DNA of 64,000 bases from Rhodospirillum centenum SW (GTDB taxonomy: Bacteria > Pseudomonadota > Alphaproteobacteria > Azospirillales > Azospirillaceae), in the NCBI RefSeq assembly GCF_000016185.1, contig NC_011420.2, positions 62,001 to 126,000 on the forward strand, given 5' to 3'. The position numbers were made by a program, and so were the translations under genes. Positions within the stretch are counted from its first letter, which is position 1. Each line of letters starts with the position of its first letter. Under the pieces are notes generated by a model. It did not search any database. It had not been told where the DNA came from and was given only the letters and a program-made list of their open reading frames with translations. Below are positions 633 through 18,849 of this stretch, piece by piece.

Positions 633-1082
633 ATGCCGAGCATCCGGGAGGCGGCCCTGTCCGCGCTGCTGGCGCGGCTCGCCGCCGTGCCGGACGCCAT
701 GGACGGACGGGAGGTCGCGGTGCCCGAGCGCATTCCGCCCGGCGGTCTGCTGATCCTGCGCGACGGCGAGCCGGGCGTGCCCGAGGTGACGCTGTCGCCG
801 CTGCTCCACCACTACGACCATGTCGCCGAGATCGAGGTGCTCGTCCAGGCCGCCGACCCGCCGCTGGGCCGCACCGGTCCCGGCCGGGCGAGAGCCCTGG
901 ACGAGCTGCTGCGGGCATTGGCCGCGTCCCTGGCCGCCGACCGCACCCTGGGCGGCACGGTCGACTGGATGGCCTGGGGCGCGCCGGAAACCGAGGACAT
1001 CGCCGTCGCCGGCGGGGCCGCCATCAAGGCCGCCCGCGTGCCGGTGACGCTGACCTACAGCACGCCCGATCTCCTGACCTGA
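633..1082 (+). CDS. Tail terminator / tail completion-like protein
   Basis: A 149-residue soluble protein lying directly before the tail tube gene, where siphoviruses encode the tail terminator that caps the tail tube and joins it to the head. The N-terminus (SIREAALSALLARLA) is a predicted helix and the middle alternates short strands, consistent with the small alpha/beta terminator fold, but no diagnostic motif is visible and the call rests mainly on length and gene order. Database annotation of such genes is often uninformative. The ATG at 633 follows the previous stop by 3 bp. Confidence 0.55.
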   Translation: MPSIREAALSALLARLAAVPDAMDGREVAVPERIPPGGLLILRDGEPGVPEVTLSPLLHHYDHVAEIEVLVQAADPPLGRTGPGRARALDELLRALAASLAADRTLGGTVDWMAWGAPETEDIAVAGGAAIKAARVPVTLTYSTPDLLT

Positions 1083-1099: not shown

Positions 1100-2036
1100 A
1101 TGGCCCGCGCCACCGGCGCCCACCGCGCAGTTGCTGGGTGCCTTCGAGACCGCCTACGGCACCGCCCCCGGCGGCAATTTCCACACGCTGCCCTTTGTCA
1201 GTTGCGACCTCGGCAGCCAGCAGCCGCTGGAAGCCTCCGATGTCCTCGGCCTGGGGCGTGACCCGGCCCCGCCATCCCGTGACGTCATCACTGCCGAGGG
1301 GCAGATCACCGTCCCGGTGGACCTGCGCAGCATCGGTTTCTGGCTGAAGGGGCTGTTCGGGCCGCCGGTCACCACCGGCACCGGCCCTTACAGCCATGTC
1401 TACACATCCAGGGCCGACACGCTGCCCAGCCTGGCGCTGGAAGTCGGTCACCCGCAGGTGCCACGTTATTTCCTGAACCTCGGCTGTCTGGTCAACAGCC
1501 TGAACCTGGGGTGGGCGCCGTCGGGCAAGGCCAATGCCACCCTGGCCGTGATCGCCCAGGTGGAGACGGATGCCGCCACCTCGTCCGGCGGCACCCCCAC
1601 CACACAGGGTTTGCAGCGGTTCCACCAGTTCCAGGGACGCATAGCCAAGGATGGGGCGGCACTGGCCAACATCACCGCCGCGGAATTGACCTACGCCAAC
1701 AACCTCGACCCCGTCCGCGTCATCCGCGACGACGGCAAGATCGAAGGCGCCGACCTGGGCGTGGCCGCCTGCACCGGCAATCTGGCGGCGCGCTTCGCCG
1801 ACATGGTGCTGCTGGATGCCGCCACCGACGGCACCGCCATGGCGCTTGAATTCGCCTGGGTGATCGACGCCGACCGCTCGCTGACCGTAGCATTGCCGTC
1901 GGTCTTCCTGCCCAAGCCGCGCATCCCGATTTCCGGCCCGGCCGGCATCGAGGCCCGCTTCGACTGGCAGGCCGCCAAGCCGGACAGTGGGGCTTTCGCC
2001 ACCGTCACCCTGAAGAACGACGTCGCCAGCTACTGA
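1100..2036 (+). CDS. Tail tube (major tail) protein, frameshifted near its start
   Basis: The product forms the tail tube. The body (from 1131) is about 300 residues, the size of long siphoviral tube proteins, and ends with a strand-rich region (TVTLKNDVASY). The natural start is the ATG at 1100, with GGAG at 1087-1090 correctly spaced, giving MARATGA. That frame does not continue into the tube protein. Removing one C from the CCC run at 1119-1121 restores MARATGATAQLLGAFETAYG and joins the two frames. In the body frame the only start before 1134 is a TTG at 1131 without a Shine-Dalgarno. So the gene is either broken by a one-base insertion, read with a frameshift, or affected by a sequencing error. 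Confidence 0.75.
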
Positions 2037-2050
2037 CCGGAGCGCCCGCC

Positions 2051-2410
2051 ATGATCCGCCTCGACCTGCTACGCGAGCCGTTCTGGCTCGACCTGGGGAT
2101 GGGGGTGCGTCTGCACCTGCGTCCCTGCACCACGGCGCTGGTGCTGGCCGCCCGCCAAGCCGTGCGTGATACGGACATGACCGACGAACCGCCGGACCTC
2201 GTGCCGGGGACGCGCACTGCCACCTTCCTGAAGGCGATGGGCCGGCTGTCCATCCTCGGCTGGGAGGGGGTGGGCGATGCCGATGGCGCGCCGGTGGAAC
2301 CCACGCCGGATGGGATCGACGCCCTGCTGGACCTGCACCCGGTGGCCGACGCCTTCAGCCTGCGCTACCTGGGACCGGTTGCGCTGCTGGAGCAGGAAAA
2401 AAACGTCTGA
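2051..2410 (+). CDS. Tail assembly chaperone, short (G-like) form
   Basis: A 119-residue protein located between tail tube and tape measure, the slot of lambda gpG-type chaperones that coat the tape measure during tail assembly. It starts at ATG 2051, 15 bp after the tube gene stop. The 3' end carries the heptamer A AAA AAC at 2398-2404, six bases before the UGA stop. Most ribosomes should end here and release the short form; a minority would slip to the -1 frame and make a longer G-T fusion. The family call comes from position, length and the slippery site rather than from a conserved motif. Confidence 0.65.
   Translation: MIRLDLLREPFWLDLGMGVRLHLRPCTTALVLAARQAVRDTDMTDEPPDLVPGTRTATFLKAMGRLSILGWEGVGDADGAPVEPTPDGIDALLDLHPVADAFSLRYLGPVALLEQEKNV
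2398..2404 (+). promoter_or_regulatory. -1 ribosomal frameshift slippery site
   Basis: The bases A-AAA-AAC are in the phase X-XXY-YYZ relative to the chaperone frame (codons GAA AAA AAC GTC TGA). This is a canonical -1 heptamer. After slipping, translation continues without a stop from 2404 to 2760. Tail-chaperone genes of tailed phages very often use such a shift at this exact place. Confidence 0.75.
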
Positions 2411-2760
2411 AGGCCCGCGCCGAATGGCACTTCGGCGGCGGGCCGGGATACTGCGCGAACTGCGCCACCGCCGGCCTGCCCTGTGCCGGGGGACGGCCGG
2501 GACCGACGGGCGCACGCTGCCCCTACGACGAGCACGCGCCGCAGACGGTGGAGGGCTGGCAGGTCTGGGATCTCGCCCTGGTTTGTGCCGGGCAGCTTCG
2601 GATCGCGCCGAGCGGGGCTGTGCTGGGTTTCGATCATGCCGCCGTCCTGGACATGGCGGCGGCGCAAGGCATGCCGATCGCCGCCATGACCATCCTGTTG
2701 CCGGCGGTCGAGGTGGCCTTGGTGGACGCGGCGAACGCCGAACGGAAACAGAGCGCCTGA
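2404..2760 (+). CDS. T-like extension of tail assembly chaperone, reached by -1 frameshift
   Basis: This open frame is in the -1 phase of the chaperone gene, has no good independent start (first candidate GTG at 2548, mid-domain) and has no stop between the slippery site and 2760. The fused product would be about 236 residues. The extension begins RLKARAEWHFGGG and contains four cysteines in the arrangement C-x2-C-x6-C-x11-C (codons 2452-2520), which looks like a small zinc-binding ribbon. Its C-terminal half is a predicted helical region. In lambda the equivalent T domain binds tail tube subunits while the G part binds the tape measure. Function is inferred from that model. Confidence 0.65.
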   Translation, partial: RLKARAEWHFGGGPGYCANCATAGLPCAGGRPGPTGARCPYDEHAPQTVEGWQVWDLALVCAGQLRIAPSGAVLGFDHAAVLDMAAAQGMPIAAMTILLPAVEVALVDAANAERKQSA

Positions 2761-2766
2761 CAAGCG

Positions 2767-3141
2767 TTACGGCTCACCCATCTCATTTTCGACCGCGGGA
2801 AGATGTCGGCTGATGTCCATCGAGTCGTGCAGCAGGCGCAGGACGTCGATGGTCCGTTCATCCGTGTTCGGCGTGATGCGGAACAGGACGAAGTGCCGCC
2901 CCTTGTTGCCCGTCCGCGCCACATGCAGAGTCAGGAGGCCCGGCGCGATCTCATTTCGTTGTCTGACCCCGATGATCGTCGGACCCGAAACCAGGGCTTC
3001 AAGAGCCGCACTCAGAACCCTTGCGTAGGTGTTCGCCTGCCGGAGACCGAACCGGTCCGCCGTCCAGCGGAGAATCTCCTGAAAATCCCGCTCGGCCGCC
3101 GCCGACAGGCGGACCGTCCAGGTCGGACCGCCAGACGTCAT
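2767..3141 (-). CDS. parE: RelE/ParE-family toxin
   Basis: A 124-residue protein of the RelE/ParE fold: an N-terminal helix (AAAERDFQEILRWTADRFG) followed by strands ending with VLRLLHDSMD. ParE toxins usually poison DNA gyrase while RelE toxins cut mRNA; the sequence alone does not decide. The ATG overlaps the parD stop by 4 bp (3138-3141), the usual antitoxin-first coupling. It is encoded against the direction of the tail operon and its 3' end lies 6 bp from the end of the chaperone extension frame, so the pair looks inserted between tail genes. Confidence 0.75.
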   Translation of the reverse strand: MTSGGPTWTVRLSAAAERDFQEILRWTADRFGLRQANTYARVLSAALEALVSGPTIIGVRQRNEIAPGLLTLHVARTGNKGRHFVLFRITPNTDERTIDVLRLLHDSMDISRHLPAVENEMGEP

Positions 3142-3440
3142 GACCGGTCCCGGAGACCCGCCTGATCGCCGAGCACGGTTTCGGCCAATCCGGTCAGATG
3201 CCGCCCCAGGGCGTCGGCGGTGGTGAATGACCGGAAGCGACCGTCCTCGATGTCGGCGATCCCCAAGCGGGCCGCTTCACGCAGGGCGTCCAGCCGAGCG
3301 CGTTCTTCCGCCTCCCGGTCTTCGACCAGCCGCAGCCCCTCGCGGAGGACTTCGCTGGCGTTCTGGTAGCGACCGGACGACACCAGCCGCTCGATCAGGT
3401 CGGCTTGATGGTCGGTGAGAACCACATTGCGGGTCGGCAT
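3138..3440 (-). CDS. parD: ParD-family ribbon-helix-helix antitoxin
   Basis: About 100 residues. The N-terminus (MPTRNVVLTDHQADLIERLV) gives the beta-strand and helix of a ribbon-helix-helix DNA-binding domain, followed by GRYQNASEVLREGLRL, the typical ParD/CC2985 signature. The C-terminal half is expected to wrap the toxin. I chose ATG 3440 because the conserved ParD N-terminus begins there; an in-frame ATG at 3473 would add 11 unconserved residues and would place the start inside the operator palindrome. It should bind that palindrome and repress its own operon. Confidence 0.75.
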   Translation of the reverse strand: MPTRNVVLTDHQADLIERLVSSGRYQNASEVLREGLRLVEDREAEERARLDALREAARLGIADIEDGRFRSFTTADALGRHLTGLAETVLGDQAGLRDRS

Positions 3441-3467
3441 GGTCGGCCTCCGGTATGAACGCAACGA

Positions 3468-3482
3468 TGGCATATTATGCCA
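3468..3482 (-). promoter_or_regulatory. Palindromic operator of parDE, with overlapping -10
   Basis: TGGCATATTATGCCA is a perfect 15-bp palindrome 28 bp upstream of the parD start. Read on the minus strand it includes CATAAT/TAATAT, a plausible -10 element. A ParD dimer bound here would block RNA polymerase, matching the autoregulation normal for these modules. Confidence 0.5.
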
Positions 3483-3536: not shown

Positions 3537-3793
3537 TTAGGGCAGGTCGTCGCTATGGTACCGGTGCGCGTCGGGAATGCGCGCCGCCTCGATCCCCGCG
3601 ATGTCGTCATCGCTGAGATCGGTGACCGCCAGGACCTGCCGGTCGAGACGCTTCAGACGCTCATACTCACCGGCCGAGAGGATCACCACGCTGGGGCGGC
3701 CGTACTTCGTCACGATCACCGGTTCGGCCAGGGCCTGGCCTGATAGCGGCCGAAGTTCTTCTGGACCTCGCCGGCGGAAACGGGCTGTGCCAT
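3537..3793 (-). pseudogene. Phd/YefM-type antitoxin, frameshifted
   Basis: From ATG 3793 (AAGGAAGG Shine-Dalgarno just upstream) the frame reads MAQPVSAGEVQKNFGRYQ, the Phd/YefM N-terminus, then leaves frame and stops soon after. The rest, beginning QALAEPVIVTKYGRPSVVI and ending at the TAA at 3537-3539, continues in another frame; adding one base within about 3725-3745 would rejoin the two halves into a normal antitoxin of about 85 residues. No toxin partner follows: the next gene downstream on this strand is parD. It looks like a decayed solitary antitoxin, or a sequencing error. Confidence 0.7.
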
Positions 3794-3816
3794 CGCTCAC
3801 CTTCCTTGTGTTACGG

Positions 3817-3900: not shown

Positions 3901-6573
3901 ATGACCGACCGTACCATCGCCGTGCGCCTCGCCGCCATCGGCGGTGACCGGGTGCGGGCGGAGCTGCGCGAGGTTGGCACCACCGGGGAACGGGCGCTCC
4001 AGCGCATCGAGCAGGCCTCCCGGCCGGCCTCACGCGCCCTGCAGGCCGTGGATGCCGCCGCCGGTGAGGTCCGCGGCGGGGCGGAGGCGCTGGCGGGGCG
4101 GCTGGGGCCGGCGGGGGCGGCGCTGGCCGCCCTGGGGCCGGTGGGGCTGGCGGCAGCGGCGGCCATGGGCGTGCTCAGCCTCGGCATCACCGAGGGGCTG
4201 AGGGCGGCCGGCGAGGCCGAACAGTCCTACCGCCGCCTGGAGGCGGTGCTGAAGGCCACTGGCCAGTCCGCCGGGCTGACCGCCGACCAGATCGCCGCCT
4301 TCGCCGACGGCCAGGAGGCGGCGACGTTGGCCAGCGCGGAAGCGGTGCAGGATGCGGCGGCCGTGCTCGCCACCTTCCGCTCGGTGGCCGGCGACACCTT
4401 CACCCGCGCCTTGACCCTGGCCGGCGACATGGCGGCGGTGTTCGGCGGTGACCTGTCGTCCGCGGCCATGCAGTTGGGCAAGGCGCTGGAGGACCCGGTC
4501 GAGGGCCTGAGTGCCCTGCGGCGGGTCGGTGTGTCCTTCACCGGCAGCCAGGCCGAGGTGATCCGCAGCCTGGTCGAGACCGGGCAGGTCGCCGAGGCGC
4601 AACGCCTCATCCTGGATGCGCTGGAGCAACAGGTGGGCGGGGCGGCGGCGGCCGAGGCCGGCGGCGTCACCGGGGCGGCCAACCGGCTGTCGGACGCATG
4701 GGGCAAGCTGCTGGAAGCGATCGGCAAGACACCGGCCGTAGCATGGCCGGCCGAGGCAGTGCTCGACCTGCTGGCGCGGGCGGCTGACGGCTTGGCCGGC
4801 CTGTTCGAGGACACGCCGATCGAGCAGCGCATCGTCGCCCTGAACCGCCGGCTGGTGGAGGCGCAGGACCGGGCGGCGGAGATCCAGGGGATCGTCGACG
4901 CCGCCGGTGGACGCTTCGGCCAACGCCGGCTGGCCGACGCCCGCGCCGACGTGGCCCGCCTGGAAACCGACCTGGAGGCGCTGATCGCCGAGGCCCGCCG
5001 GCAGGCGGACGCCGTCGATGCCGACCAGCGGCAGGCCGACGGGGGCCGCGCCCGTGCCGAGGCCGAACGGCGGGCGGAGATCATCGCCGACTGGCGCCGG
5101 CGGCTCGACGACGGTCTGGCCCAACCGGCGAACGACCCGGCCGAGCGCATCGCCCGCGTTAACGCCGAACTTGACCGCACGCGCCAAGCGCTGGAGGCCC
5201 TGCGCAGCCCGGACGGCGGCAATGCCGACGCCGTGGACGCGGCACTCGCCAAGGCCGAGGAGCTGGCGCGGCGGCGGATCGCGCAGATCGAACAGCCCGA
5301 CCGCGACCGGGCGGCCCGCGAACAGGAGGCCGAGACCAAGCGGCGGCAGGCCGCCCTGGACGCCATCGACGGCCAGATCGCCGCCCTGTCCCGCGAGCGG
5401 GATGCAGTCGCCCTGTCCGCCCGCGAGCGGGCCATCCAGACCGAACTACTGCGCGCCGAAGAAACCGCACGGCGCGGCGGTATCGCCCTGACCGAGGCGC
5501 AGCGGGAGGCGATCCATGCAGAAGCCGGCGCCAATTACGATGCCGCCGCCGCGACGGCTGAGCGCAACCGGCTGCTGGAGGAAGGATCGCGGCTGACCGA
5601 AAGCCTGCTCGACCCGACCGAACGCTATCAGGCGGAACTGGCGCGGCTCCAGACCCTGCTGGAGGCCGGCGTCCTCTCCTGGGAGACCTACCAGCGGGCC
5701 GTGGAGCGGGCGGCACAGGCCGATCCGGAGACCCAGAAGCGCAACCGCCTGCTGGAACAGGGGGCGTGGCTTACCGAGCGGCTGCTGTCGCCGACCGAAC
5801 AGTACGCCGCCACCATCGCCAAGCTGAATGACTTGCAGGCGGCCGGCGCCATCACCGCCGAGAGCCGGGCGCGTGCCGAGGAACAGGCGGCCGACCTGGT
5901 GCTGGCCGCCAGCCGGCGCTGGCAGGACGGCGCGATCCGCGGGCTGAAGGACTATGCCGACGAGGCCGGGAACGCCGCCCTCCAGGTCGAGCGGGTGATG
6001 ATGCGGGCCTTCGGGCGGCTGGAGGACGCGCTGGTCGATCTGGTCATGCGCCAGAAGCTCAATTTCGCCGACCTGCTGAACGCCATCGCCGAGGATTTCG
6101 CGCGGATGATGATCCGCATGTCCATCACCGCCCCCTTGGCGCAGGCGGCCTCGGGCGCCATCGCCGGCATCTTCCACGAGGGCGGCACGGCGGGCGGGGC
6201 CGCCCCCGGACGGGCGGTGCCGGCAGCGGCCTTCCTGGCCGCACCCCGTCTGCACACCGGCACCGTGCCCTGGCTGGCGCCGGACGAGATCCCGGCCATC
6301 CTGCAACGGGGCGAGATCGTGTTGAACCGGGCGCAGTCCGCCGCCGTGGCGTCCGCCGGGGCGCGCACCGAGGCCGGCACATCGGGACCAGTCTATGTGA
6401 TCCAGGTCGATGCCCGCGGCGCCGACGATCCCGACGCGGTGGCGATGCGGGTGGAGGCGGCGGTGGATCAGGCGCTGGCGGCCCGGCTGCCGGGGGTGGT
6501 CAAGGCGGCGGCCGGCGTCGCGCGGTCGCAGGTGGCCGACGAATGGAGCCGGCGCGGAGGGCGCTTCGGGTGA
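3901..6573 (+). CDS. Tail length tape measure protein
   Basis: 890 residues, the longest gene of the tail module. It sets tail length and is later ejected with the DNA. Residues about 60-105 are rich in Ala/Gly with a hydrophobic stretch (LAALGPVGLAAAAAMGVLSL). Long helical, coiled-coil-like segments rich in Ala, Arg and Glu run from about 300 to 670. The C-terminus holds FHEGGTAGG and LAPDEIPAILQRGEIVLNRAQ, a pattern common at the end of tape measures. Two copies of a 59-residue unit occur at residues 555-672. The gene starts at ATG 3901, past the inserted toxin-antitoxin genes, and its last bases overlap the next gene start (GTGA at 6570-6573). Confidence 0.9.
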   Translation: MTDRTIAVRLAAIGGDRVRAELREVGTTGERALQRIEQASRPASRALQAVDAAAGEVRGGAEALAGRLGPAGAALAALGPVGLAAAAAMGVLSLGITEGLRAAGEAEQSYRRLEAVLKATGQSAGLTADQIAAFADGQEAATLASAEAVQDAAAVLATFRSVAGDTFTRALTLAGDMAAVFGGDLSSAAMQLGKALEDPVEGLSALRRVGVSFTGSQAEVIRSLVETGQVAEAQRLILDALEQQVGGAAAAEAGGVTGAANRLSDAWGKLLEAIGKTPAVAWPAEAVLDLLARAADGLAGLFEDTPIEQRIVALNRRLVEAQDRAAEIQGIVDAAGGRFGQRRLADARADVARLETDLEALIAEARRQADAVDADQRQADGGRARAEAERRAEIIADWRRRLDDGLAQPANDPAERIARVNAELDRTRQALEALRSPDGGNADAVDAALAKAEELARRRIAQIEQPDRDRAAREQEAETKRRQAALDAIDGQIAALSRERDAVALSARERAIQTELLRAEETARRGGIALTEAQREAIHAEAGANYDAAAATAERNRLLEEGSRLTESLLDPTERYQAELARLQTLLEAGVLSWETYQRAVERAAQADPETQKRNRLLEQGAWLTERLLSPTEQYAATIAKLNDLQAAGAITAESRARAEEQAADLVLAASRRWQDGAIRGLKDYADEAGNAALQVERVMMRAFGRLEDALVDLVMRQKLNFADLLNAIAEDFARMMIRMSITAPLAQAASGAIAGIFHEGGTAGGAAPGRAVPAAAFLAAPRLHTGTVPWLAPDEIPAILQRGEIVLNRAQSAAVASAGARTEAGTSGPVYVIQVDARGADDPDAVAMRVEAAVDQALAARLPGVVKAAAGVARSQVADEWSRRGGRFG
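5563..5916 (+). repeat. 59-residue internal duplication in the tape measure gene
   Basis: Two adjacent units (5563-5739 and 5740-5916) both begin RNRLLE(E/Q)G..LTE(S/R)LL.PTE.Y and continue as diverged helical sequence. Tape measure length sets tail length, so gain of a unit lengthens the tail. Confidence 0.6.
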
Positions 6574-13546: not shown

Positions 13547-14293
13547 GTGAGTACCAGTTCGAAGATCGAATGGACCGAGCAGACGTGGAACCCGACGACG
13601 GGCTGTACGAAGATATCCCCCGGCTGTAAGCATTGCTACGCCGAGGTGATGGCGCGCCGTCTTCACGCCATGGGTGCTGCCGGCTACGAGAACGGATTCA
13701 AGCTCGCCCTCCACCCCGAGCGCCTCGCCCAGCCTCTCGCCCGTCGTAAGCCGACGGTCTATTTCGTCAATTCGATGAGCGACCTATTCCACCGTGACAT
13801 CCCGGACACCTTCCTGGATGACGTGTTCGCGGTAATCGGCCGGACCCCTCAACACACCTATCAAATCCTGACCAAGCGAGCGGAGCGGTTGACAGAGTAT
13901 TTCGCGTCCCGTCGTTGCCCGCCGAACGTCTGGCTGGGCGTGTCGGTGGAGGACCGGGAGTATGGCGTGCCACGGATCGACTACCTGCGCCGGGTCGAAG
14001 CACAGGTCCGCTTCCTGTCCATCGAACCGCTGCTGGAAGACCTGGGGGCATTCGACCTCTCCGGCATTCACTGGGTGATTGTTGGAGGTGAGTCGGGCCA
14101 CAAGGCACGCCCTATGGAGGAAGTCTGGGTCGAGAACATCAAGCGCCAAGCCGATAGCGCCAGCGTCGCCTTTTTCTTTAAGCAATGGGGCGGCTGGGGC
14201 GCCGACGGCGTCAAGCGCCACAAGAAAGCGAATGGGCGGGTATTCAAGGGGCGGACGTGGAACGCCTATCCGGAGATCAATACTGCGTATTGA
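13547..14293 (+). CDS. Three-Cys-motif protein, phage Gp37/Gp68 family (DUF5131)
   Basis: 248 residues from GTG 13547 with GGGGAG 7 bp upstream. The N-terminal motif IEWTEQTWNPTTGC is followed by C20-x6-C27-x2-C30, the three-cysteine signature for which the family is named; it recalls radical-SAM cluster sites but the spacing differs. Later blocks VYFVNSMSDLFH, PNVWLGVSVE, FLSIEPLLEDLG and WVIVGGESG are hallmarks of DUF5131. The family is frequent in phages and is usually coded next to TcmP, as here, although the two are convergent with a 5-bp gap. The reaction is unknown to me. Confidence 0.85.
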   Translation: MSTSSKIEWTEQTWNPTTGCTKISPGCKHCYAEVMARRLHAMGAAGYENGFKLALHPERLAQPLARRKPTVYFVNSMSDLFHRDIPDTFLDDVFAVIGRTPQHTYQILTKRAERLTEYFASRRCPPNVWLGVSVEDREYGVPRIDYLRRVEAQVRFLSIEPLLEDLGAFDLSGIHWVIVGGESGHKARPMEEVWVENIKRQADSASVAFFFKQWGGWGADGVKRHKKANGRVFKGRTWNAYPEINTAY

Positions 14294-14298
14294 TTTGG

Positions 14299-15120
14299 TC
14301 AGAACAGCGACCTCTGGCCATTGTCCGTGGCAACGCTCCAGAACTTGTGTGCCAGTTCGTTTTCCGCAGCGAGCAGAAGCCAGTACAGGCGCTGTCCGGT
14401 GTTCCCGGTGATCAGTTCCATGCGGGTCGATGGCTTTTTTCCGAGACCAGCCACCAAGTCCCGCCAGTATTCAACCACCTGCTGTCGGATTGCTTGCTGC
14501 GGCCGGGCAAGGTCCACTTTCTCGCGCCATCCGGGCGCGAAGCTATCGAAGGCCGAACCATCCTGTCCAAGGTTGATTCCGAGATTCCGCTGAAGGTCCA
14601 TTGCGCTCACATGGATCAGCATGTCGATTCGTTTCAATGTCGCGAGAGATTGGATAATCCTGAAATCCAGCGCCCCCAGGCTGAAGGGGTCGATGAAGGC
14701 GAAATGGAGGCCGTATCGATTGATGACCCCGGCTAATTCGGCGGCGGCATCGGCCGCCGACCCACTGAGTTCGCGGACCGGGGCCTTCAGCCGGTTGAGC
14801 CGTTCGACCGTAGCCTTACGTCGGTCGTCGTCGATATCGGCGACGTAAATGTCGGAGAACGGCGCCCCGCCATTCTGGCTGATCTTCCAGGCGGCGACGG
14901 CGCTGCCGTCGATCCATTCCCCGGTTTCCTTCACTTGTGCCCGCCCAGGCCCGCAGAAGAGGTCGATGAACGTCGCCGACCTCGCGGCACCCGTGAGGAA
15001 TTTGTTGCGGGCCGCGCGGGAGATATCGAGATAGCGGCGCAGCCGATCGTGCTTCTCCTTCGCCCAGGTGCCAACCTCCTCAGCAGGCAGCCCATCATCT
15101 CCATTGATCAGCGCCCCCAT
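14299..15120 (-). CDS. tcmP: Three-Cys-motif partner protein TcmP
   Basis: 273 residues. TcmP is defined by its association with the Cx6Cx2C protein found here on the other strand. The N-terminal half has a methyltransferase-like Rossmann pattern: FIDLFCGPGRA (51-61) as motif I, then VADIDDDR (93-100), and HFAFIDPFSLGALDF (139-153) as a motif IV-like DPF block. That suggests binding of S-adenosylmethionine, but no modification target is known to me. It is the last gene of the minus-strand defence operon, 22 bp after res. Its position suggests co-expression with the restriction genes. Confidence 0.8.
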   Translation of the reverse strand: MGALINGDDGLPAEEVGTWAKEKHDRLRRYLDISRAARNKFLTGAARSATFIDLFCGPGRAQVKETGEWIDGSAVAAWKISQNGGAPFSDIYVADIDDDRRKATVERLNRLKAPVRELSGSAADAAAELAGVINRYGLHFAFIDPFSLGALDFRIIQSLATLKRIDMLIHVSAMDLQRNLGINLGQDGSAFDSFAPGWREKVDLARPQQAIRQQVVEYWRDLVAGLGKKPSTRMELITGNTGQRLYWLLLAAENELAHKFWSVATDNGQRSLF

Positions 15121-15142: not shown

Positions 15143-17824
15143 TTACCTCGTTACGAATTGCCTCTCCAGCCCGGTGAGGGTCATGTTCTCGGCGATGGCG
15201 TCGTGCGGGATAAGCAGGTATTTCCATGGCTTGCCACCATAGGTGCCGGCGTGGCCGCTTGCATGGCGACACCACTTTACAGCTGCATCCCGTTTGGCCA
15301 GAACCTCCTCATCGGTCATTTGGTTGGCGGCTTTGGGCTCAAGCATGTAGATCGTGTCGGCGGCCTCGGCGACGAAGTCCGGCTGGTACTCGGCGTGGTC
15401 GGCGCCCCGCTTGTAGAAGATCTGGAACTGCCCCTTGGCCGGCTTGAACCATTTCAGCGATTCCCGCTCCAGGATCACCGACATCTTGCGCTCGGAGTCG
15501 GACTGGAACTTCTGGACCGGATAGAGGCATTTCTGGAAGCCGCTGAAAAGGTACTTTGCCATGTTGCTCTTGTCGGTCGGGGATGTGCGGAAATCCAATG
15601 GCGGTTCCGTCGCCGAGGCGGTGAAGGCGCTGGTCTTCAGCTCGGTGAAGCCTTTGCTCACCACCACCTCGTAATCGACCGCCTCCTCCCAATAGTGCGC
15701 CTGCATTTGGGCATGGACGAAGCGGGCGATTTCCCGTTGATGGAACCGCAGCACCCGTCGGGCGTCATCGGACGAAAGGTAGCCGAGGAGATGCGAGGTC
15801 ATCTGGCCGGCAAGGTCGTAGAGCAGGTCGGCATGGTCGTCATAGGCGATGTCGTCGAAGTCGATCAGGCCGCCGACGATGTAATCTTCGAGCCGGCTTT
15901 CCTCGATCCCGCCGTGGCCAAGGCCGATGATTTCCAGGTGGTTGGTCCGCAGGTGCTGGACCCACAACTCCTCCGACGGCGCCTGGTAGTTGATCTTCGA
16001 CAGATCGAGGGTGAACGGCTTGAAGCCCGACCGCACCTCGCCCTTGGGCACCACCAGAATGCGCGGGATATCGATGGTCTGCTGCACCACCAGTTCGGTG
16101 GTCTTCGCCACGACGGCCGCCAGGTCCGGCTTGCTTACCCCCTCCATCTCCAACTGCTGGGGCCGGTATTGCGCCGCCACTTCGCGCAGGACCGTCTCAC
16201 GGACCTCCGGGTTCTGGAGGTACGTCACGCTGGGCAGCTTGCCGGGCTGGTTCTCCAGCCTGCGGATCACCTCGTAGGTGATCCGGGCAACCTTCTGCTC
16301 CTCGGGCGTGGCGAAAGCCGGCGCCTCGCCGCCAGAAGCCACGCTGGTGCTCGCCGTCATCTGTTCGGGTTGGAAGCCGAGCTTGGCGGCCAGCCGCGAT
16401 TGCGACACCACGGTCGCCGTCTTTTGCTGGAATTGCTCTGGCGCGATGATCACCTGCTGGAGGCGGATGGTCGAGTTCGGCCGGTTCGCTTCCTCGACGA
16501 TTTCCTGGAACTTGTCGTGGGCGACGATGTTCAGTCGGTCGACCGAGATCACGCCGGTCCGCTTGCCATAGGGCAGGCGCAAGCCACGGCCAATGGACTG
16601 CTCGATCAGCGTGCGGGCGTTGGCGGCCCGCAATGGCACGATGGTGTAAAGGTTGGTAACATCCCAGCCTTCTTTCAGCATGTTGACGTGGATAACGATC
16701 TCGGTGGGTTCCTCGGTGTGTTCCACCTTCAGCAACCGTTCGATCATCTCGTCTTCCTCGGCGCCGGTCTTGCTCGAATCGACCTGGATCACCTTGTGGG
16801 CGTACCGGCCCCCGAAGAATCTGTCCGACTGGATGAACTGCATGAGCTGCCCGGCGTGGGTTGTGTCCCGCGCGATGACCAGGACGAACGGCTTGACGAT
16901 GGCATTGCCGGTCTGGCGGGCATAAGTCTCCAACTCGACCTTGACGCCTTCGTGCAGGCGCACGCCGTCTTCCAGCTTCAGGCGCTCGATCTCTTCGATC
17001 GACATGCCGGCCGGGTTGAAGTCCTTGCGGGTGACCACCGCCGGCTCCTTGACAAAGCCGTCGGCCATGGCACGACCCAGCGGGTAATCGAGAATGACGT
17101 TCTTGAACGGCACCGCGCCCCGGCTGGTCTCCACAAATGGCGTGGCGGTCAGTTCCAGTCCCAACACCGGCTTCAGCTCGTTGATGGCGCGGACCCCGGC
17201 CGAAGCCCGGTAGCGGTGGGATTCGTCCATCAGCAGCACAAGGTCGGGCAGGCCGGCGAGATAGTCGAAATAGCTCTCGCCGATGTACTCCGAAAGCCGT
17301 TTGATGCGCGGGGATTTGCCGCCCCGGACCTCTGAATTGATCTTCGAGATATTGAAGATGTTGATTTTACAACGGAGTAGCTCGTTGAGCAGCGCACCAC
17401 GCGACTCGTAATTATCACCTGTAATGACTTCCGGAGTTTCAACGGAGAACTCGGCGATTCCCTTGAACACGTACTTGGGCGTGTTTGGGGTGAAATCGGC
17501 GATCAGTTTGTTGTAGATGGTCAGGTTGGGCGCCAGAACGAAGAAGTTGTTGATGCCATGCGCCAGATGCAGATAGGTGATGAAAGCGCCCATGAGCCGC
17601 GTCTTACCGACGCCGGTGGCCAGCGCGAAGCATAGGCTGGGGAAGTCGCGTTCGAAATCGGTGACGGTCGGGAACTCGGCTTTGATGGCCTCCAGCGCCG
17701 CCACTGCGTCGGCCACCTTCCTGGGCGGAATGACCTCTGTGATCCGGTCGAGAATTTCGAGCGACTGCCGCTGGGGCGGGCGTAGGCTGAGACGGCCGGC
17801 GATGGCGTTGACATGACGGTTCAT
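15143..17824 (-). CDS. res: Type III-like restriction subunit Res (helicase-nuclease)
   Basis: 893 residues. Superfamily 2 motifs are clear: ATGVGKT (69-75) for ATP binding, DESH (200-203), LTATPF (225-230), and QSIGRGLRLPYG (409-420). The C-terminus carries PDF at 815-817 and E-P-K at 829-831, a PD-(D/E)xK endonuclease site. Type III Res proteins use ATP to translocate or slide on DNA and cut in a complex with Mod. The ATG overlaps the rhuM stop by 4 bp. Unusually, mod and res are separated by the rhuM gene. All catalytic motifs look intact. Confidence 0.88.
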   Translation of the reverse strand: MNRHVNAIAGRLSLRPPQRQSLEILDRITEVIPPRKVADAVAALEAIKAEFPTVTDFERDFPSLCFALATGVGKTRLMGAFITYLHLAHGINNFFVLAPNLTIYNKLIADFTPNTPKYVFKGIAEFSVETPEVITGDNYESRGALLNELLRCKINIFNISKINSEVRGGKSPRIKRLSEYIGESYFDYLAGLPDLVLLMDESHRYRASAGVRAINELKPVLGLELTATPFVETSRGAVPFKNVILDYPLGRAMADGFVKEPAVVTRKDFNPAGMSIEEIERLKLEDGVRLHEGVKVELETYARQTGNAIVKPFVLVIARDTTHAGQLMQFIQSDRFFGGRYAHKVIQVDSSKTGAEEDEMIERLLKVEHTEEPTEIVIHVNMLKEGWDVTNLYTIVPLRAANARTLIEQSIGRGLRLPYGKRTGVISVDRLNIVAHDKFQEIVEEANRPNSTIRLQQVIIAPEQFQQKTATVVSQSRLAAKLGFQPEQMTASTSVASGGEAPAFATPEEQKVARITYEVIRRLENQPGKLPSVTYLQNPEVRETVLREVAAQYRPQQLEMEGVSKPDLAAVVAKTTELVVQQTIDIPRILVVPKGEVRSGFKPFTLDLSKINYQAPSEELWVQHLRTNHLEIIGLGHGGIEESRLEDYIVGGLIDFDDIAYDDHADLLYDLAGQMTSHLLGYLSSDDARRVLRFHQREIARFVHAQMQAHYWEEAVDYEVVVSKGFTELKTSAFTASATEPPLDFRTSPTDKSNMAKYLFSGFQKCLYPVQKFQSDSERKMSVILERESLKWFKPAKGQFQIFYKRGADHAEYQPDFVAEAADTIYMLEPKAANQMTDEEVLAKRDAAVKWCRHASGHAGTYGGKPWKYLLIPHDAIAENMTLTGLERQFVTR

Positions 17825-18849
17825 CGCTTGGTCCCCTTTTTCGCCGGAGCCGGGCGCGGGTTGCGCGCCGTTGCCGCCTGCTCCGCGATGCGCTTCAGTT
17901 CGTCCAACTCATCGGCTTCCTCGGATGCCCGCCGTTCGGCCTCCTTTCGCTGGGTATCGAACAGGGCGTAGCGGTCGTGGGCGATCTTTTCCGCCTGCTT
18001 GGCCGAGACGCTCCCGGCGTTGTGGAGAAGCGGAAGCTCGTTCGCCTTGAGGAAGCCGTCGAGGATCGTCTCCCATTCGGCCAGATGGATTTGCTGACGC
18101 CGCGTGGAACGCAGCTCGGCGGTGTCGAGGAACATGCCGACGATCAAATTCAGTTCCCTGACCTCCGTTTCGCCCAGGTAATTCTTGGCGGTGGTTACGT
18201 CGGCCTTGCGGACACGCCCCCCCTTCCAGCTGGTCAAACCCATGTTGGGGGCGTTTTCATCGGCACGCGCGGCGATCAGTTCCGCCGCCGTATGGTGGGT
18301 CACGGCGTGGAGCATCTTGTTCTGGATGGTGGCGTAGAAGGTTGGTACCGTATCGGCCTTGGCGGTGTAATCGACGCTCAAGGCCAGGATGTCGCGGACC
18401 TTCTGATAGAATCGGGCCTCCGAGGCACGGATGTCCCGAATCCGTTCCAGCAGTTCATCGAAGTAGTCGAATTTCGGGTCTTTCAGGCGTTCGTCGTTCA
18501 TGACGAAGCCCTTGACCAGATATTCCTTCAGCACCGTCGTCGCCCAGCGTCGGAACTGGACGCCCCGCTCGGAACGCACCCGGTAGCCAACGGCCAGGAC
18601 CACATCCAGGCTGTACAGCCTGACCGGCTTGTCCGAATGGGCAACGTGCATGTTTTGCACATTGCTTTCCTCCCCAAGCTCACCGTCGGCAAACAGGTTG
18701 CCGATGTGCTTGGTGATCACCGACCGTTCGCGATCGAACAGAATCGCCATCTGTTCCTGGGTCAGCCAGACCGTTCCACCGCTGGACCGAAGCTGAATTT
18801 CGGTCCGGCCGTCCTCTGTGGTGTAGAGGATCACTTCACCCGTGCTCAT
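17821..18849 (-). CDS. rhuM: RhuM-family protein
   Basis: 342 residues matching the RhuM virulence family: WLTQEQMAILFDRERSVITK resembles a DNA-binding helix-turn-helix, followed by DVVLAVGYRVRSERGVQFRRWAT, NYLGETEVRELNLIVGMFLD and a Lys/Ala-rich tail. The name comes from a Salmonella pathogenicity island gene, but members are widespread in phage- and restriction-linked loci and their molecular function is not established. It overlaps both mod (18846-18849) and res (17821-17824) by 4 bp, so its production is tied to theirs. A regulatory or sensor role is a guess. Confidence 0.85.
   Translation of the reverse strand: MSTGEVILYTTEDGRTEIQLRSSGGTVWLTQEQMAILFDRERSVITKHIGNLFADGELGEESNVQNMHVAHSDKPVRLYSLDVVLAVGYRVRSERGVQFRRWATTVLKEYLVKGFVMNDERLKDPKFDYFDELLERIRDIRASEARFYQKVRDILALSVDYTAKADTVPTFYATIQNKMLHAVTHHTAAELIAARADENAPNMGLTSWKGGRVRKADVTTAKNYLGETEVRELNLIVGMFLDTAELRSTRRQQIHLAEWETILDGFLKANELPLLHNAGSVSAKQAEKIAHDRYALFDTQRKEAERRASEEADELDELKRIAEQAATARNPRPAPAKKGTKR

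Follow-up and report, generated by a model that had tools for sequence, protein, structure and literature searches.

The window analysed here is a stretch of 64,000 nt, taken from positions 62001-126000 of a genome that forms a single contig of 4,355,543 bases. It holds a run of phage tail genes in the order tail terminator, tail tube, a G-like gene, a T-like reading frame (hereafter G and T), an inserted ParDE pair and tape measure (Table 1). An IMG/VR record of 53,217 bases contains both G and T with 100% identity, and the locus is therefore probably a prophage, siphophage-like in character. The closest named relatives belong to Niveispirillum, Azospirillum sp. RU38E and Oleisolibacter.

Table 1. 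Features of the G/T locus, in window coordinates.
Feature	Position	Strand	Remark
Tail terminator gene	633-1082	+	PHROG 4204, E 1.3e-26
Tail tube protein gene	1131-2036	+	PF18906 Phage_tube_2, 198.2 bits; PHROG 290 (there named minor tail protein)
G-like gene: tail assembly chaperone in the zero frame, 119 aa	2051-2410	+	PHROG 313 match, E 4.4e-9
Slippery heptamer A AAA AAC	2398-2404	+	zero-frame phase, near end of gene G
T-like -1 frame, 118 codons + stop	2404-2760	+	DUF7697 PF24752, 46.8 bits vs cut-off 27; PHROG 11212, E 2.1e-6
Spacer between heptamer and hairpin, 7 bases	2405-2411	+	contains zero-frame stop TGA 2408-2410
Predicted RNA hairpin, 13 pairs	2412-2444	+	stem 2412-2424 with 2431-2436 and 2438-2444; bulge 2437; loop 2425-2430
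Four cysteine codons of T (residues 17, 20, 27, 39)	2452-2520	+	putative metal-binding site
First ATG/GTG/TTG of T frame (GTG)	2548-2550	+	70-aa fragment without the cysteine part
Tape measure protein gene	3901-6573	+	PHROG 24, E 5e-37; PF09718, 90.1 bits

G had no match among the Pfam models, NCBIfam gave no row for G or T, and joining the two into a G-T fusion did not improve the chaperone match over that of G alone. The ParE toxin and ParD antitoxin genes (2767-3473, minus strand) lie between T and the tape measure gene. A close copy of the pair occupies the same place in Niveispirillum sp. SYP-B3756, and more distant relatives occur elsewhere near tail genes in other loci. A candidate Phd/YefM-like antitoxin gene, apparently broken by a frameshift as judged by eye, follows at about 3537-3795 (minus strand). 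Close to where the prophage record is computed to reach its far end, two convergent genes at 13547-15120 match PADLOC candidate defence models (PDC-M30B/M41B, 5.5e-114; PDC-M41A, 8.9e-11). Beyond it, at 15143-18849 (minus strand), a type III restriction enzyme-like gene (1.6e-213) stands beside a match to the candidate defence model PDC-S05 (6.9e-141).

G starts at ATG 2051 and ends with CAG GAA AAA AAC GTC TGA, in which AAA (2399-2401) and AAC (2402-2404) are the zero-frame slip codons. A first-pass annotation of this DNA had described an in-phase heptamer six bases before the stop, followed by a -1 frame open for 119 codons with no good start of its own. The letters bear this out. Six bases separate the start of the AAC codon from the TGA, and three lie between the end of the heptamer and that stop. 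The -1 frame runs for 118 codons from 2404 to a TGA at 2758-2760 (119 with the stop), and its first ATG, GTG or TTG, the GTG at 2548, would give a product of merely 70 aa. Upstream, the -1 frame is open as far back as 2170. Two copies of A AAA AAC were counted on both strands of the window against 0.53 expected (two or more in 8 of 100 shuffles), and the 4.36 Mb genome holds 53, so the mere presence of the heptamer is unremarkable. A heptamer in phase within the last codons of precisely gene G is unlikely to arise by chance, and its conservation at the same aligned position in relatives settles the observation: the slip site and the open -1 frame are confirmed.

Relatives were collected from related genomes, IMG/VR, phage records and named genomes. 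By profiles of both parts, the 193 sources, comprising 192 loci and the window, include T in 190 and both parts in 186; T is missing from L015, L016 and L109, and G from L081, L172, L189 and L192. Many of the fetched loci are copies of one another, and the window itself is present several times. T lies in the -1 frame of G in 177 of the 186 loci, in the +1 frame in seven and in frame 0 in two. The junction in the 177 is AAAAAAC (154), GGGAAAC (12), GGGGGAA (6), AAAAAAA (4) or AAAAAAG (1), and all five words occupy the same aligned spot. One genome contributes five G matches (L009, L020, L022, L023, L024; one of them partial), all with GGGGGAA at the junction.

T was clustered at 65% identity into 33 clusters. 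Rows without the -1 relation, with a T alignment starting past profile position 2 or with N nearby were excluded as representatives, while the heptamer played no part in the choice. These rules removed the clusters of L018 and L171 and left 31 usable representatives, so that the -1 relation and a junction 7-mer are found together in 31 of the 33 lineages (AAAAAAC 17, GGGAAAC 7, GGGGGAA 3, AAAAAAA 3, AAAAAAG 1). The first-pass annotation had proposed a comparison of homologues, looking for loss of the heptamer or closure of the frame. Neither was seen, apart from nine exceptional rows among the 186: L018, L187 and L191 (one locus thrice), L024, L067, L097, L128, L136 and L171, most of them with indels or Ns. 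The frame relation and its conservation are thus direct observations.

The bases used at the slip site also depart from the habits of the gene around it. The slip-codon lysine is AAA in all 21 lineages that have one, against 63 of 133 lysines (47%) in the bodies of G, and the slip-codon glycine is GGA in seven of ten lineages, against 19 of 234. Clustering at 80% (47 lineages) gave 35/35 versus 75/181 for lysine AAA and 7/12 versus 29/365 for glycine GGA.

A homopolymer is a place where sequencing errors are common, and the frame break could in principle be such an error or the mark of a decayed gene. L067 and L097 do have one A fewer in the run, and L128 and L136 carry N in or beside it. The same break, however, recurs in isolated phage records, IMG/VR contigs and independent genomes, also at words that have no A run, and both halves are conserved; these independent records practically refute error or decay, to which we give next to no weight. 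In L128 (2495) and L136 (2492-2493), the N letters at or beside the slip site place G and T in one frame. These two records, labelled MAG, are a complete Defluviicoccus chromosome and one titled Exiguobacterium profundum, and contain further Ns elsewhere (6 and 13 in all). Automatic repair of reading frames in long-read assemblies may have masked a genuine recoding site in both.

The run of seven A (2397-2403) also raises the possibility that RNA polymerase slips on it and adds a base, which would yield the same frame and hence some mRNAs with an in-frame G-T. We regard this as highly improbable, because GGGAAAC (7 of 31 lineages) and GGGGGAA (3 of 31) stand at the same place with no long A run. 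A hairpin at ribosomal spacing, described below, fits a ribosomal slip, although structure can aid polymerase slippage too.

The place at which G itself ends differs among relatives. In the clade of the window G stops two codons after the slip site, and in many other loci, such as L030, L092 and L114, its zero frame extends about 30 codons over the start of T; of the 95 distinct junctions, 64 have the zero-frame stop 91 bases downstream of where T starts. We suspect that the position of the stop follows from the codons of T.

Relatives of T align from the first residue after the slip. Between 2404 and 2547, before the first in-frame start, comparison with four close relatives revealed changes mainly at third codon positions, with 2, 6 and 15 changes at positions 1, 2 and 3 against L026 and 3, 2 and 10 against L028. 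On this pattern of substitution, T is coding from the junction onward. Among 24 T sequences, W8, C17, C20 and C39 are invariant and C27 is kept in at least 90%. The four cysteines possibly form a metal-binding site. DUF7697 (52 positions) matches T residues 68-115, with the T of phage RcOceanus scoring 60.1 bits, and PHROG 11212 (55 positions) matches residues 65-114. Since the two models cover just residues 65-115 of 118, the cysteine half of T lies outside them. The models may be short because gene callers put the start of T at an internal codon.

These data also bear on whether T could be made as a separate protein, by re-initiation or coupling near the G stop (for example at CTG 2407) or from GTG 2548. 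The frames overlap at the stop, a GGA lies a few bases upstream of CTG 2407, and two cyanophage records annotate T as a gene of its own, shorter than here. The CTG, however, is not kept and is replaced by CTC, CTT, CTA, ATC, TTG or TTT in relatives. An ATG, GTG or TTG in the T frame between -60 and +45 occurs in just 7 of 95 distinct junctions. The region before 2548 shows mostly third-position changes and holds conserved residues. For the cyanophage records, the alignment points to a misplaced start of T. A start codon alone would moreover leave the kept slip codons and the hairpin spacing unexplained. Separate synthesis of T is thus very unlikely, and translation of T as an extension of G by frameshifting is the reading that we follow below.

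A predicted RNA hairpin downstream of the slip site adds to what the first-pass annotation had claimed. The segment 2405-2460 folds with -28.1 kcal/mol (dinucleotide z -2.43). Compared with synonymous shuffles of T, the 45 bases that follow a 5-base spacer have a mean z of -2.26 across the 31 lineages, with z below -1 in 25 and above +1 in none; the window has -2.82. A scan of 42-base windows at 24 offsets located the signal: mean z was -1.65, -1.88, -1.98 and -0.85 at 0, 3, 6 and 9 bases, and the remaining twenty offsets stayed within -0.44 to +0.16.

Covariation was counted in a gap-free alignment of 28 of the 31 lineages; L181, L184 and L120, judged to carry insertions, were left out. The bulged stem is paired in 74.5% of cells, against 36.0-52.5% when slid along the alignment. 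Its covariation is 0.302, where the slid versions do not exceed 0.171, and both partners vary in 10 of the 13 pairs. In the structure that was counted, the unpaired base is column 41, one later than in the window's own fold. A strictly symmetric stem was also tried and rejected, with lower values than the bulged one (68.1% of cells paired, covariation 0.248; 56.6% and 0.230 when slid by +1). RNAalifold returned no pairs and no consensus fold for the 28-lineage alignment, perhaps because the bulge shifts register, and the best single folds of some lineages, such as L007 and L163, lack the stem.

The stem sits in codons of conserved residues (R-L-x-A-x-A-E-W-H-F-G-G-G). The hairpin could then be a mere by-product of a conserved T protein in G+C-rich genomes, one that gives no stimulation to a frameshift that is itself real, and the missing RNAalifold consensus would agree with this. 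Against it, shuffles that keep both the protein and the codon set fold worse, and do so only at the position of the hairpin; pairs change on both sides; and the stem is kept in single folds of lineages with other residues or lower G+C (L017, L186, L013). We therefore consider a by-product unlikely. The hairpin signal is observed, and the hairpin, conserved and covarying, probably helps the slip.

An upstream Shine-Dalgarno element is present at the E. coli dnaX site. Here, a Shine-Dalgarno-like candidate stimulator, GGAGCAGG at 2389-2396, varies among lineages (judged by eye) and is not counted as part of the site; no constant upstream element was seen. The E. coli dnaX site resembles that of the window in combining an A-rich heptamer with a downstream stem-loop (PMC5009743, PMC7282821, both in part), and differs in having A AAA AAG in place of AAC. 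The spacing of 7 nt found here falls within the 5-9 nt given for stimulators (PMC5009743, in part). In the open-access literature, represented by parts of PMC10885494, PMC5009743 and PMC3711429, we found nothing on a hairpin in the present G/T family.

The direct relatives among named phages are the RcC phages of Rhodobacter capsulatus (RcOceanus gp14/gp15, RcKvothe, RcKemmy), with 37-39% identity in G and about 39% in T. They share with the window the gene order, the -1 relation and a 7-mer at the same place, and their records carry a joined two-piece CDS named 'tail assembly chaperone'. They differ in having GGGAAAC instead of AAAAAAC and a zero frame of G that runs about 30 codons past the site; in RcOceanus, no gene separates T from the tape measure gene. 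The paper on R. capsulatus phages reports a programmed frameshift for most of those that it describes, RcZahn being without clear evidence (PMC8601537, in part). The Paracoccus virome paper and the RcGTA-origin paper do not mention frameshifting.

The first-pass annotation had likened the locus to the G/GT strategy of lambda. Its architecture agrees: in both, overlapping reading frames lie between the tail tube and tape measure genes and the -1 shift occurs late in the first, the second frame of lambda being read as a fusion (PMC5009743, in part). The chaperone match of G, the -1 relation and the 7-mer also support the assignment, which does not extend to sequence. At E up to 1, neither G nor T was hit by PF06894 or PF06223, the models that do recognise the lambda proteins, and profiles gave no meaningful alignment with the sequence of lambda G/T. 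The slip site of lambda is GGGAAAG, compared with AAAAAAC in the window.

The hairpin separates the two further. The same shuffle test on eight lambda-type phages (lambda and seven others, not mutually independent, with the HY01 site chosen by pattern alone) gave mean z of -0.34, -0.44 and -0.45 at 0, 3 and 6 bases. Lambda itself has +0.66, +0.75 and +0.62, with no excess of stability, and PhiR12_1, N15 and LLS reach about -1. At this spacing, then, a comparable hairpin is absent from lambda, and at most a weak signal is present in its relatives. The lambda-type phages dip further on, to -1.56 at 24 bases and -1.15 at 72. The haloarchaeal viruses HCTV-1, -2 and -5 shift between g and t on G_GGA_AAC and A_AAA_AAC (PMC5009743, in part), the two commonest words of the family studied here; their hosts are archaeal, and the comparison made here is of slip words.

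Predicted structures were compared with the PDB. The model of G (pLDDT 86.5) has as its best row the HK97 tail assembly chaperone 2ob9, at a low Z of 4.5 (rmsd 5.9 over 90 residues), followed by one at 2.9; eight rows reach Z of at least 2 among 338 chains aligned. A plain Foldseek PDB list for G has unrelated rows on top, at E 1.1 or worse. PDB sequence searches found nothing for G and nothing meaningful for T (best E 0.27). In an HK97-like cluster, frameshifting of two genes was measured at 6 and 7% in E. coli (PMC3711429, in part). Of 36 PDB chains aligned to the model of T (pLDDT 94.1), none scored above Z 3.1. No viral match fell below E 0.04, though several weak rows are named tape measure chaperone.

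Programmed -1 frameshifting of the lambda G/GT type fits the gene order, the PHROG 313 match, the conserved 7-mer and the -1 position of T, seen in 177 of 186 loci. After the tail tube gene and ahead of the tape measure gene come a tail chaperone and a second, -1 frame that lacks a usable start, and the in-phase slippery site is conserved in homologues. On this sequence evidence, we put the probability that the pair is expressed by programmed -1 ribosomal frameshifting at roughly 93%. Counted against it, besides the nine departing rows and the RNAalifold and single-fold results above, were two features of the slip words. GGGGGAA, in 3 of 31 lineages, is not an X XXY YYZ word, and A AAA AAC slips less than A AAA AAG in E. 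coli (PMC5009743, in part). The motif list of PRFect includes one called 'fivetwo' (PMC10885494, in part), and GGGGGAA may, from our reading of the name, be that motif. No paper on the A AAA AAC site of IS1 turned up in one search of the open-access literature.

The occurrence and rate of slippage, the effect of the hairpin and the roles of G and G-T are inferred as follows. Most ribosomes would translate G and terminate at its TGA, two codons beyond the slip site. A smaller share would be slowed by the hairpin, which lies seven bases ahead, while their tRNAs sit on AAA and AAC. These ribosomes would shift back by one base, bypass the stop codon and translate on into T, so that G-T fusions would be few compared with G. 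If the proteins act as in lambda, G would bind the tape measure protein, while tail tube subunits would be recruited by the T part of the fusion.

The choice of slip codon may reflect the tRNAs of the host. AAC is the slip codon in 24 of 31 lineages and AAG in one. The tRNAs of the window's genome include two Lys CUU, one Lys UUU and one Asn GUU (37 of 43 matches were typed, one being without a clear anticodon), and about half of known bacteria have a single lysine tRNA (PMC5009743, in part). AAC may be preferred because a tRNA-Lys CUU would hold AAG firmly, a suggestion drawn from the lysine tRNAs of the window's genome.

Frameshifting of tail chaperones is well established (PMC5009743, in part). 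The kind is thus already known; the hairpin and the preference for AAC lift the present case somewhat above the ordinary, and these two together with the four-cysteine half of T are what is new here. They lead us to propose, tentatively and at a little under even odds, a mostly alphaproteobacterial branch with a stimulated cassette, in which an AAC slip codon is followed seven bases on by a covarying hairpin. The cassette would perhaps be an adaptation to hosts in which a second lysine tRNA (CUU) makes AAG a poor slip codon, and its ratio of G-T to G would perhaps be higher or tighter than in lambda. The T half of this branch would be a four-cysteine, possibly metal-binding part, absent from family models that begin inside it.

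Neither DUF7697 nor PHROG 11212 covers this conserved half, which lies ahead of the first in-frame start and marks a gap in the databases. The slip site is under selection in many lineages whose proteins show no sequence match to lambda G/T. A conserved hairpin at the slip site would make it testable how phages set their chaperone ratio.
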